Shown here in pieces: positions 7,403 through 28,731 of a DNA stretch of 32,155 nt. This DNA comes from an uncultured Anaerosacchariphilus sp. (GTDB lineage Bacteria > Bacillota > Clostridia > Lachnospirales > Lachnospiraceae), in contig CAKROP010000002.1 of the NCBI GenBank assembly GCA_934373375.1, positions 1 through 32,155 on the forward strand, read 5' to 3'. How positions within the stretch are numbered: position 1 is the stretch's first letter; each line of letters starts with the position of its first letter. The position numbers and the translations under genes are program-made. The notes under the pieces were generated by a model, which worked only from the letters and a program-made list of their open reading frames with translations, ran no database searches and was not told the origin of the DNA.

Positions 7403-8902
7403 TTATACCATCATCGTAATCAGACTGTTCTCATCCAGCTCCGGACTTCTCTCCAGCTCGCCGCTGAGCTTACCGTCCTTCATGATTATGATACGGTCGC
7501 ACATACCAATCAGCTCCATCAGCTCCTCGGAAATCATAATAATGGATTTTCCGTTCTTTCTCATCTGATTCATCAGCTGATAGATATCCTGTTTTACCTT
7601 AATATCAATTCCTCGTGTGGGGCTGTCCAGCACGACGATGTCGGAATCCTTTCCAATCCATCTGGCCAGTACGACCTTCTGCTTGTTACCGCCGGACAGG
7701 TCAGATACGAACTGATCCACGTTGACCATCTTGACGGACATCTGCTCCGCGAACTTGTTGGAGAACTCCTTCAGTTTCTTATCGCTGAGCATGTGGGTTT
7801 TGCCAGCCAGCTCATCCAGAGAGGGCAGACAGATATTGTCACCAATGCTCTGATTCAGGACTACGGACTCATTGTCACGATCCTTGGAGGTATACGCGAT
7901 ACTGTGCTTAATTGCAGTCGGGATATCGTTGATCTCGGTTCCGTCCGCCAGAACCACCTTACCTGTTCTGTCATAGGAAGCGCCGAAAATAGCCTTTCCA
8001 ATCTCATGCATACCGGACTCGGACAGTCCGCCGAAGCCCAGGATCTCGCCTTTGTGAAGATCGAAGCTGACATTTTCAATCAGGCCCGGAACGGTTACAT
8101 TCTCTACAGAGAGTACCACCTCGTCGGATACCTTCTCGCCGTAATCCGCACGATAATAATCTCCGGTTACCTCACGGCCTACCATCAGACGCTTCAGGTC
8201 GTCCTCATTTACATCCGCACTCTTTACGGTGTCGATGTAGACGCCGTCGCGCAGGATGGTGATGGTATCGGATTTATCCAGAATCTCCGGAAGGTCATGG
8301 GAGATGAAGATGACAGTATTACCACTCTCACGGATACGGTTCATGTGCTTGTACAGCTCCTCACGTCCTTCCTGGGAAAGAGCTGTGGTGGTCTCGTCGA
8401 TGACTACGATCTTCGGGTCGAAATAGGTTGCCTTTACAATCTCAACCAGCTTTCTGTCCTCGAAATTATAATTATCAATGATATCAGAGGCCTTAATTCT
8501 GTCGAAGCCGTATTTATGAAGAAGCTCGGTGGCCTCTTTGTTCATGGCGTTTGTATTTTTGATTCCGAAGTGTACGAAGCGGTCCTCATGGCCCAGGAAA
8601 ATATTTTCCGCTACGGTCAGGCCGGACAGAGTTCCCAGCTCCTGTACGATGATGGATACGCCCTCTTCATTAGCTTCCACCTGGTTCTTCGGATGAATTT
8701 CTTTTCCATCCAGTACGAAGGTACCGCTGTCGATGCTGTAGATGCCGGTCAGCATGTTGGTCAGTGTGGATTTACCGGATCCGTTCTCACCAATCAGCGC
8801 ATGAACCTCGCCTTTATTTACATTAAATGATACATTCTGTACCGCCTTCGTAATACCGAAGGACTTGCAAAGATTTTTAACCTGTAATCTTACTTCACTC
8901 AT
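7403..8902 (-). CDS. Sugar ABC transporter ATP-binding protein, two-domain (RbsA/AraG/MglA type)
   Basis: This 499-aa protein has two ABC domains in tandem and energises the transporter at the inner face of the membrane. Domain 1 has Walker A GENGSGKST (38-46), Walker B VVIDE (E170) and the switch His in ISHD (H202). Its signature loop is degenerate: YNFEDRK (145-151) stands where LSxGQ-type residues are expected. Domain 2 has an intact signature LSGGNKQKVVLARW (402-415). It lacks a Walker A (GGLSESGMHE, as is usual in this family), and its Walker B carboxylate is replaced by Ser (VVLDSPTRGID, S427). So only the site formed by Walker A/B of domain 1 and the signature of domain 2 looks competent. 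AAGGAGGAG precedes the ATG. Confidence 0.92.
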   Translation of the reverse strand: MSEVRLQVKNLCKSFGITKAVQNVSFNVNKGEVHALIGENGSGKSTLTNMLTGIYSIDSGTFVLDGKEIHPKNQVEANEEGVSIIVQELGTLSGLTVAENIFLGHEDRFVHFGIKNTNAMNKEATELLHKYGFDRIKASDIIDNYNFEDRKLVEIVKATYFDPKIVVIDETTTALSQEGREELYKHMNRIRESGNTVIFISHDLPEILDKSDTITILRDGVYIDTVKSADVNEDDLKRLMVGREVTGDYYRADYGEKVSDEVVLSVENVTVPGLIENVSFDLHKGEILGFGGLSESGMHEIGKAIFGASYDRTGKVVLADGTEINDIPTAIKHSIAYTSKDRDNESVVLNQSIGDNICLPSLDELAGKTHMLSDKKLKEFSNKFAEQMSVKMVNVDQFVSDLSGGNKQKVVLARWIGKDSDIVVLDSPTRGIDIKVKQDIYQLMNQMRKNGKSIIMISEELMELIGMCDRIIIMKDGKLSGELERSPELDENSLITMMV

Positions 8903-26925: not shown

Positions 26926-27045
26926 GTGCACTCCATCCACTGGAAACGCTTTGCGATGCACAGAAATTACGACATAATTTCGCGCTGTGCTCCACCATTT
27001 AGTTCCGTCTCTCACGGACACTCATCCGCATTGTGCGGACTGCAC
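26926..27045. other. Cluster of inverted repeats upstream of ppaC, possible structured RNA
   Basis: About 120 bases of the gene-free stretch 26903-27168 fold as a multibranch structure. A closing stem GTGCA/TGCAC (26926-26930 with 27041-27045) encloses three hairpins. The first is a GCACAG/CTGTGC stem with an inner AAATTA/TAATTT stem (26958-26990), the second TCCGT-CTCTC-ACGGA (27004-27018) and the third TCCGCA-TTG-TGCGGA (27025-27039). No T run or convincing promoter is attached on either strand. No gene is seen here; the rest, up to 27168, is AT-rich without recognisable signals. Confidence 0.35.
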
Positions 27046-27168
27046 GATTTATTCTCCCTGTTTTCTATTGTTTCTCTGCGTTTTGCCGAGCCACCTTTTC
27101 GGATACTTTTATGCTTTTTGTCTATTTTGTCCTGTTTTTTCTTTTCTTTTTTTAGTATTTTGTGCGTT

Positions 27169-27222
27169 TTCACATTAAGTTCACAATTCGTTCATAATTT
27201 ATTCATAATCAATTGCTATACT
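27169..27222 (+). promoter_or_regulatory. Pho-box-like array of four 11-bp direct repeats with extended -10 promoter
   Basis: Four consecutive 11-base units start at 27169, 27180, 27191 and 27202, each beginning TTCACA or TTCATA followed by five AT-rich bases. They end 4 bases before an extended -10 box, TGCTATACT (TATACT at 27217-27222). No -35 consensus is present at optimal spacing. Tandem TT-N-A-C/T-A hexamers on an 11-bp period, covering about -60 to -17, are the arrangement bound by PhoP (Bacillus) and PhoB-type response regulators. The sequence pattern is seen directly; Pho control is inferred. Confidence 0.7.
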
Positions 27223-27228
27223 GTATTC

Positions 27229-27397
27229 AAGTTAAGGGAACAACCTCTTAACAATGAAAATGCTTTCACTACACATATAGATAAATTTTTTCATAATAGC
27301 CTCGGCGTACCTGGTACGTCGGGGCACTCCTCATTTTATGGGAAATATCCAAGTCTGAACATAGAAAGACCTGAAGTCGGCACTTCAGGTCTTTTCC
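27229..27397 (+). ncRNA. Candidate small RNA, possibly phosphate-starvation controlled
   Basis: The transcript of about 170 bases runs from the predicted start near 27229 to the 13-bp terminator. It holds an 8-bp hairpin GTTAAGGG/CTCTTAAC, a small TGAAA/TTTCA hairpin, an AU-rich single-stranded stretch, and an 11-bp hairpin (left arm CCTCGGCGTAC, right arm GTACGTCGGGG). A short unpaired CACTCCTCATTTT region follows, and then the terminator. The wobbles in the 8-bp and 11-bp stems (one and two) are G-U on the plus strand and would be A-C on the minus strand, so selection acts on plus-strand RNA. The unpaired CTCCTC is complementary to a Shine-Dalgarno core. No credible ORF is present. The next gene is convergent, so this is not a leader. 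Confidence 0.6.
27365..27394. terminator. Bidirectional terminator of lepB and the candidate small RNA
   Basis: A perfect 13-bp stem AAAGACCTGAAGT/ACTTCAGGTCTTT (27365-27377 with 27382-27394) with a CGGC loop has T runs on both strands. It lies 12 bp beyond the lepB stop. Confidence 0.95.
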
Positions 27398-27405
27398 TCC
27401 TACCT

Positions 27406-27957
27406 TTATCTCGTCATCCCCATATACACAAACACCCGTCCGGTGATGTCGTCCGCCGTCACGGCTCCGAAGCTTCTGGAATCCTTGGAATTTTCCCGGT
27501 TGTCACCCAGCACGAAATAGCTGTCTGCGGGAACCGTATAGGGATAGGTAATGTTCTCCGACAGGGCCTCGGTTTTGCCGACAGCCGTAACCGTCGTGTC
27601 CTTCTCTCCGTTGACGATAAGACTGCCCTCTTCCGAGAGCTCTACCACGTCACCGGACTCCGCCACCACGCGCTTGATGTATTCCACACCGTCTGCCCGG
27701 TGGATAATCACCAGGTCGTTTCTCTGATAAGTCTCATCCAACCGGTAGAAAAGCACCATTTCCCCGTCTGTCAGACCCGGCTCCATGGAACTGCCACTAA
27801 CGACTGCCAGGCCAATTACATAATGAAACGCTGCGTAGACCAGCGCTACCAGCACGATACATTCTACAATAAAGCGCCGGAACTCCTTCCGCCTGTACAA
27901 CCTTTCTTTTCGTTCTTCCAGTACCTCGTCCACGGACTGAAGCTGTTCTCTTTTCAT
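27406..27957 (-). CDS. lepB: Signal peptidase I
   Basis: This membrane-bound serine protease removes signal peptides from exported proteins. The 183-aa product has one N-terminal membrane helix (about 29-50) after a charged cytoplasmic segment. Ser57 lies in SGSSMEPGL and the general-base Lys95 in EYIKRVVA, with the conserved box GDNRENSKDSR near residue 150. Its size and single helix match Gram-positive type I peptidases. It starts 10 bp after the coiled-coil gene with which it is co-transcribed. The N-terminal 28 residues are unusually rich in Glu, Arg and Lys and predicted helical, perhaps allowing contact with the neighbouring coiled-coil protein. Confidence 0.95.
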   Translation of the reverse strand: MKREQLQSVDEVLEERKERLYRRKEFRRFIVECIVLVALVYAAFHYVIGLAVVSGSSMEPGLTDGEMVLFYRLDETYQRNDLVIIHRADGVEYIKRVVAESGDVVELSEEGSLIVNGEKDTTVTAVGKTEALSENITYPYTVPADSYFVLGDNRENSKDSRSFGAVTADDITGRVFVYMGMTR

Positions 27958-27967
27958 CTGTGTCAGT

Positions 27968-28618
27968 CTACTCCTGTTCCGCCAGTTCTCCGATTCTCGT
28001 CTTCAGCAGAAGGAACCGCTCGTTCAGGCGCTCCAGTTCCTCGCCGATCATTGTCAGCTCACGCTTCTGCTGATCGGCTTTTTCCTGCATCTGTGCCTGC
28101 ATTTCCCGGCGGATTTCTACCCGGGCAGCGGCAATCTGTTCCTGCATTTTCTCGTAAGTTTCCTTCTGCTCCGCGTCGAATTTTTCCTTCATGGCCTGCT
28201 GCTCTTTTTCAGCCTGCTCTTTCAGCTCTGCGCGCTCTTTTTCCATCTGTGCCCGCAGTTCGGCGCGCTCCGCCTCCTGCTTTTCCCGTTCTTCAGACAG
28301 TTTCTGCTGCTCTTCGGCGCGCTCCGCCGCCAGACGGGCCTTCATATCCTCCAGCTCTTCCTGCTGCTGTTTCCGCATCTGCTTTAGCTGTCCCCGGTTC
28401 TGGTCCCGCATCTGCTGGGCCCGGCTCTGGTACATCTTGTTCAGCTGCTGCATTTTCTCATAGACATCTTCTTTTTGAAATCCAAATATTCCACTCTTCA
28501 ATTTCATATTCCTCACAAAATCTGTTATCTCCGGAAACTCTACCTCTACCGTATCCTGCACGATCTCAGGATACTCGAGAGGCTTCCCCTCTACGATTGC
28601 TTTGCTCTGTTCTTCCAT
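27968..28618 (-). CDS. DivIVA-like coiled-coil protein
   Basis: This 216-aa cytoplasmic protein is dominated by a long Glu/Lys/Arg/Gln-rich coiled coil (about 70-205). Just before it is KSGIFGFQKEDVYEKMQQLNKMY, which resembles the short N-terminal DivIVA/GpsB motif (FGYxKxxVxxFLxxL) that targets curved membranes. A role in cell division, polar organisation or envelope assembly is therefore possible but unproven. The start at 28618 is favoured by AAGGGGG upstream; an ATG 13 codons earlier (28657) with GAGG only four bases before it is the alternative. The gene is the first of a two-gene operon with signal peptidase I. No membrane helix is visible. Confidence 0.75.
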   Translation of the reverse strand: MEEQSKAIVEGKPLEYPEIVQDTVEVEFPEITDFVRNMKLKSGIFGFQKEDVYEKMQQLNKMYQSRAQQMRDQNRGQLKQMRKQQQEELEDMKARLAAERAEEQQKLSEEREKQEAERAELRAQMEKERAELKEQAEKEQQAMKEKFDAEQKETYEKMQEQIAAARVEIRREMQAQMQEKADQQKRELTMIGEELERLNERFLLLKTRIGELAEQE

Positions 28619-28702
28619 ACTGCCGCCCCCTTTGTAAGACATCTGAATCACGTTCATACGGCCTCAGCAGCAAGCGCTTCAGCCTGTTATTTATCTTTTT
28701 TC

Positions 28703-28731
28703 ATAATACCGTATAATCCGCGATTTTACAA
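28703..28731 (-). promoter_or_regulatory. Promoter of the coiled-coil protein-lepB operon
   Basis: On the minus strand -35 TTGTAA (28726-28731) and -10 TATTAT (28703-28708) are spaced by 17 bp, about 80 bases upstream of the start codon. Confidence 0.75.

Follow-up and report, generated by a model that had tools for sequence, protein, structure and literature searches.

Comparative sequence analysis indicates that the intergenic region beside lepB in the window (the whole 32,155-nucleotide stretch of DNA that was analysed) holds a real RNA gene, which would encode a trans-acting small RNA of ~170 nt belonging to a family outside Rfam. In the mechanism that we consider rather probable, this RNA works with an htrA-linked OmpR-family regulator and lowers lipoprotein synthesis by pairing through two seeds. 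The response regulator, of the CssR/CiaR/LisR type and also controlling htrA, would bind the TTCAYA boxes upstream of the RNA and turn it on; CUCCUC would then pair with the Shine-Dalgarno (SD) sequence and UUUUUUCAUAAUA with UAUUAUGAAAAAA, the two seeds being separated by a hairpin. Most gene starts that combine an SD with UAUUAUGAAAAAA appear to be those of lipoproteins that have Met-Lys-Lys signal peptides, and many of these proteins are solute-binding; the RNA would accordingly lighten the exported-lipoprotein load, with HtrA meanwhile removing misfolded ones.

The first-pass annotation of this DNA had placed four contiguous 11-base repeats just upstream of an extended −10 element, and this arrangement was recovered at the same positions, with boxes starting at 27169 (TTCACA), 27180 (TTCACA), 27191 (TTCATA) and 27202 (TTCATA) and the −10 hexamer beginning 4 bases past the 44-bp block (Table 1). 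The block scored 24 out of 24; when the 571-bp intergenic region was shuffled 1,000 times with dinucleotides preserved, no shuffle reached this score and the best gave 19. Promoter-like matches of a simple scan were set aside; the boxes themselves were among them. The domain content of the flanks bore out the position of the RNA gene between a DHH/DRTGG/CBS/DHHA2 pyrophosphatase-type gene, which is divergent from it, and the Peptidase_S26 gene lepB, which is convergent toward it. A 596-codon open reading frame (window 26926-28716, plus strand), antisense to lepB and also spanning the RNA, appears spurious. The rightward reading, proposed earlier from wobbles that are G-U on the plus strand alone, held for the GC hairpin, which includes U-G and G-U pairs possible on that strand only, and the fold z-score against shuffles was −6.5 for the plus strand vs −4.2 for the minus strand. 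This hairpin, previously taken as 11 bp, is present but folds as 12 bp; the CTCCTC after it, described as unpaired, is indeed so in the centroid fold but lies partly inside a weak hairpin in the minimum-energy fold. The perfect 13-bp terminator stood as annotated, and may also serve lepB. The most conserved part of the RNA, absent from the earlier annotation, is the unpaired UUUUUUCAUAAUA (27286-27298) at the 3' end of the unpaired stretch, which complements UAUUAUGAAAAAA and, with it, AUGAAAAAA starts.

Table 1. Features of the RNA locus (window coordinates)
Feature	Position	Strand	Basis or remark
Four tandem 11-bp boxes, TTCACA/TTCATA-N5	27169..27212	+	Presumed response-regulator site
Extended −10, TTGC-TATACT	27213..27222	+	Sequence and alignment
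Predicted transcript, ~170 nt	27229..27397	+	Start inferred from the −10; fold z = −6.5
5' hairpin, GUUAAGGG...CUUAAC	27231..27252	+	Fold; sequence differs among relatives
Conserved unpaired stretch	27264..27298	+	No change of UUUUUCAUAAU in the 31-sequence alignment
Covarying GC hairpin between the two seeds	27299..27325	+	58 distinct hairpins, stem in each
CUCCUC, putative anti-Shine-Dalgarno seed	27327..27332	+	Same in all 31 sequences of the alignment
Terminator hairpin, 13 bp, loop CGGC	27365..27394	+	Short T run after; sequence not conserved

It had been suggested that relatives be compared for the repeats and for covarying stems, and both were found. We collected 80 loci via the divergent pyrophosphatase gene, mostly from Lachnospiraceae or related Clostridia, and the RNA element was detected in 34 of them (blastn, E ≤ 0.01, within the available flanks). 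Counting the window, 35 sequences were scored for the four boxes and 34 had them; the remaining one, cut by a contig end, starts inside the RNA. The distance from the boxes to the −10 was constant except in L013, where the best score lay one repeat further on. Across 31 aligned sequences, 22 core columns were invariant, including those of UUUUUCAUAAU, which precedes the hairpin, and of CUCCUC, which follows it. Among 70 hairpin sequences, selected for the flanking CATAA and CTCCTC, we counted 58 distinct versions, every one of which forms a stem; with levels numbered from the outermost predicted pair, levels 5 and 8-11 showed five or six pair types. The alignments thereby establish a family with a covarying hairpin. 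An automatic tally, crude and with start sites misplaced in several rows, gave the 5' hairpin in 29 of 35 and the terminator in 11 of 35. The downstream gene was convergent in 30 of 35 sequences; the script picked a same-strand frame in the window, L001, L002, L007 and L061, a pick that masked lepB in the window, and by blastn the element also adjoins lepB DNA in L001, L002 and L007. Model R1, which spans 9 pairs only, detected the RNA at E < 1e-4 in 13 of 16 genomes, at E ≤ 0.5 with strict filters in 142 of 299 family genomes (103 genomes at E ≤ 7.5e-4), and at E ≤ 0.01 in 11 of 391 class-wide genomes, 6 of these 11 being also in the family draw; all counts are raw, with kinship among genomes ignored. 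Plasmid records yielded no match to the RNA. Rfam includes models for the csRNA and LhrC families, and the search of Rfam returned no match at gathering scores and seven weak ones at E ≤ 10, none of them csRNA or LhrC; a known Rfam family was rejected because none matched. Overall, these results indicate that the locus is a real RNA gene, because the element recurs in relatives, its seeds are invariant, its hairpin versions are all paired and the downstream genes are mostly convergent; the proposed plus-strand small RNA with tandem 11-bp boxes and an accessible CUCCUC is kept in relatives.

Weaker R1 matches in these genomes share the layout of the RNA and were read as siblings, in which a U-run with CAUAAU is followed by a hairpin and then by CUCCUC or UCCUCCC. 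Of the 13 genomes having a strong R1 match, 12 contained a sibling; siblings were identified by eye rather than with a dedicated model, and mostly carry TTCATA-like repeats upstream, which were left unscored. Both CUCCUC and CAUAAU are retained even in divergent siblings, and UCCC was read in some siblings only. A promoter-only search added further siblings at L201, L204 and L211. In G006, two siblings lie ~2.8 kb apart (L190:4890-5090 and 7750-7950), the first directly after a response-regulator/kinase pair.

Hairpin aside, the RNA is the complement of an SD plus UAUUAUGAAAAAA. The pattern GAGG-N4-12-TATTATGAAAAA gave 28 matches in 10 genomes compared to 4 for the reversed control; 25 of the 28 were clear gene starts, and lipoproteins accounted for 20 of these 25. 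When the four bases before the ATG were altered as a control (30 loci fetched out of 224 matches), lipoproteins stood at 6 of 20 clear starts (p = 0.001; p = 0.0035 after de-duplication). Ten of the 20 lipoproteins were run against Pfam: nine matched families of solute- or substrate-binding proteins, one of these matches being weak, and the tenth matched a cyclophilin-type isomerase. The pattern was rarer in 18 genomes without an R1 match, with 9 matches in 53.2 Mb vs 28 in 49.8 Mb, a comparison uncontrolled for genome size and base composition, and by reading 3 of 8 clear starts in these genomes were lipoproteins. Lipoproteins were called by a lipobox rule, which in the set without R1 matches wrongly flagged L429 and missed L424. 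Pairing energy over both seeds did not separate lipoproteins among 521 genes (AUC 0.51; shuffled mean 0.509), and in the same test genes with a hydrophobic N-terminus gave an AUC of 0.59 (p = 0.001). With the start segment only, 41 lipoproteins compared to the rest of 682 genes gave AUCs of 0.69 and 0.78, each reached by 0 of 100 shuffles, in a test confined to ATG starts, with a tightened lipoprotein rule and more loci, whose design was picked after seeing the both-seed null; lipoproteins made up 5 of the 10 genes with at least 11 matched bases. We consider lipoprotein starts a likely target class on these sequence grounds.

The locus had originally been read as a phosphate-starvation small RNA under PhoP/PhoB with the same anti-SD action, a reading that we now regard as improbable. 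Tandem boxes with an 11-bp period fit PhoB/PhoP-type regulators in general, some relatives have TTTACA or TTAATA as repeats 1 and 2, and in G001 (likewise, by coordinates, in G002) a sibling lies beside a cluster of NaPi cotransporter, two-component, PiT and pst genes. The G001 sibling (L180:3230-3460, minus strand) has about six degenerate TTCATA-type repeats and sits just upstream of the NaPi cotransporter/kinase/regulator/pst cluster. As a separate observation, a PstS-like protein (L180:10592-11560) matches its profile in two swapped halves, the second first, as if circularly permuted, and such swapped-half matches were seen in G001, G002, G004, G008, G009, G010 and G013. Against phosphate control, the pstS upstream regions of five relatives carry TTTACA-N5-TTTACA in 4 of 5, whereas the boxes of the RNA are TTCAYA. 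A census of exact matches to TTCAYA-N5-TTCAYA-N5-TTGNTA gave 10 matches in 16 genomes, of which 8 lay at this RNA and the other 2 at htrA, and 67 matches in 57 of the 299 family genomes, compared to 1 for the reversed pattern. These 67 comprised 41 at this RNA (≤220 bases from an R1 match at E ≤ 7.5e-4), 12 at htrA (10 by Pfam, G031 by a near-identical HtrA start and G005 by HtrA search), 3 at further RNAs of the same design (one of them, G053 C124, truncated by a contig end and assigned because its promoter is identical) and 11 elsewhere, namely at three ABC-transporter genes, a signal-peptidase operon (L345), a Mur ligase, a helicase-like and an rRNA-methylase-like gene and four places without a clear gene. 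Recognised phosphate genes were found at none of the 67 exact matches in the family genomes, vs 12 for htrA, and on the box difference and this census Pho control was set lower as the leading reading. In L345:290-1547 (G099), the exact promoter match stands ahead of two genes, the second of which encodes a Peptidase_S26 signal peptidase; the RNA in the window adjoins lepB. The census establishes, at the level of DNA sequence, a promoter design common to the RNA and htrA; since this design is shared and translation of lipoproteins would apparently be blocked, an envelope-stress regulator is more likely than a phosphate-starvation RNA.

Two other readings were weighed against the same evidence. 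That the RNA, although under the htrA-linked regulator, has a small number of specific mRNA targets or a protein partner instead of lipoprotein starts in general seems doubtful to us: about 30 nt of the unpaired stretch is conserved, which exceeds the needs of a start-codon seed, and the both-seed energy test was negative, but the context test and the start-segment energy favour lipoprotein starts, and the retention of CUCCUC and CAUAAU extends to divergent siblings. We hold it very improbable that the element acts in cis, whether for lepB (as its antisense transcript, 3' end or terminator) or as the leader of a downstream gene; the terminator begins 11 bases past the lepB stop and lepB DNA adjoins the element in close relatives, but the RNA has its own conserved promoter, its gene neighbours vary between groups and its downstream genes are predominantly convergent.

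For the envelope-stress RNA that we prefer, the candidate regulator is the response-regulator/kinase pair divergent from htrA. Six of 14 htrA upstream regions scored at least 15 for three TTCAYA boxes, and the closest relatives read (G001, G002 and G004) showed no clear boxes at htrA. In 12 of 12 genomes, htrA had a response-regulator gene no more than ~4 kb away, and five htrA loci show genes for a response regulator and a histidine kinase, together with a long frame (mutS2 judging by its start), that are divergent from htrA; the L418 regulator and the L418 and L419 kinases match response-regulator/kinase models. Because the candidate passes no NCBIfam equivalog cut-off (the best models, MtrA, YycF, PieR and PhoB, were each below it), its identity as the regulator is one that we infer. 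Promoter sites with one mismatch were also seen at response-regulator genes in L258 and L259, which may be chance, since the reversed pattern gave 9 matches vs 36. Streptomyces CutR, also an htrA regulator, binds TAWATAAA according to an excerpt of the published work (PMC12802291), so that a TTCAYA-type box is not universal to htrA regulators.

In excerpts of the published work, Streptococcus CiaR controls htrA and csRNA genes alike (PMC4507080, PMC3091779) and binds hexamer repeats with an 11-bp period, TTTAAG-N5-TTTAAG (PMC3091779, PMC4507080), and the unpaired regions of csRNAs complement SD and AUG (PMC3091779). As far as those excerpts go, the likeness to the csRNAs and CiaRH extends to siblings under two-component control, 11-bp repeats, an htrA gene sharing the regulator and unpaired anti-SD and anti-AUG regions. 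Three such traits were present here: CUCCUC and UUUUUCAUAAU are invariant in the 31 sequences and unpaired in the centroid fold, the promoter site is common with htrA as a sequence match (12 of 67 at htrA, 41 of 67 at the RNA), and sibling copies occur within the genome in 12 of 13 genomes. The RNA differs from csRNAs in its box sequence, in the covarying hairpin between its seeds, in the lipoprotein-start context and in having no Rfam match, and its targets are predicted whereas those of csRNAs, in the same excerpts, are proven. LhrC of Listeria, in the parts of the reports available, is under LisRK and acts at the ribosome-binding site to repress OppA and LapB (PMC4132741, PMC8079631); it resembles the present RNA in being multicopy, in its envelope-stress two-component system and in C-rich motifs directed at ribosome-binding sites of surface proteins, including the solute-binding OppA, but its UCCC motifs lie in loops and a linker, those parts mention no start-codon seed, and no Rfam sequence match links the two. 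The Bacillus subtilis CssR box, TTTTCACA in the excerpt consulted (PMC6749698), is close to the TTCACA found here, and htrA genes are among the CssRS targets; however, the portions of the CssRS literature searched name no small RNA of such kind. In the best-supported model, that of an envelope/secretion-stress RNA which lowers lipoprotein synthesis, the family would work like csRNAs and LhrC; by the Rfam test it belongs to neither. The E. coli Sigma-E RNAs MicA and RybB are likewise envelope-stress RNAs that cut the synthesis of abundant exported proteins, but differ in regulator, envelope and RNA.

Our searches of open-licence papers found no description of this RNA or a similar one in Lachnospiraceae, and the excerpt available of a 50-genome ncRNA paper (PMC11109978) does not mention the family. 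Lachnospiraceae are a major gut family, and we put forward tentatively, as a possibility, that in them an htrA-linked two-component system drives sibling RNAs that are, in Gram-positive bacteria, the equivalent of E. coli's envelope-stress RNAs, with hairpin-separated anti-SD and anti-AUGAAAAAA seeds serving as a generic lipoprotein address. If true, a target-prediction rule of SD plus UAUUAUGAAAAA would be open to test, the logic of csRNAs and LhrC would seem to have arisen more than once, and one small RNA family would tie HtrA envelope quality control to the synthesis of nutrient-binding lipoproteins.
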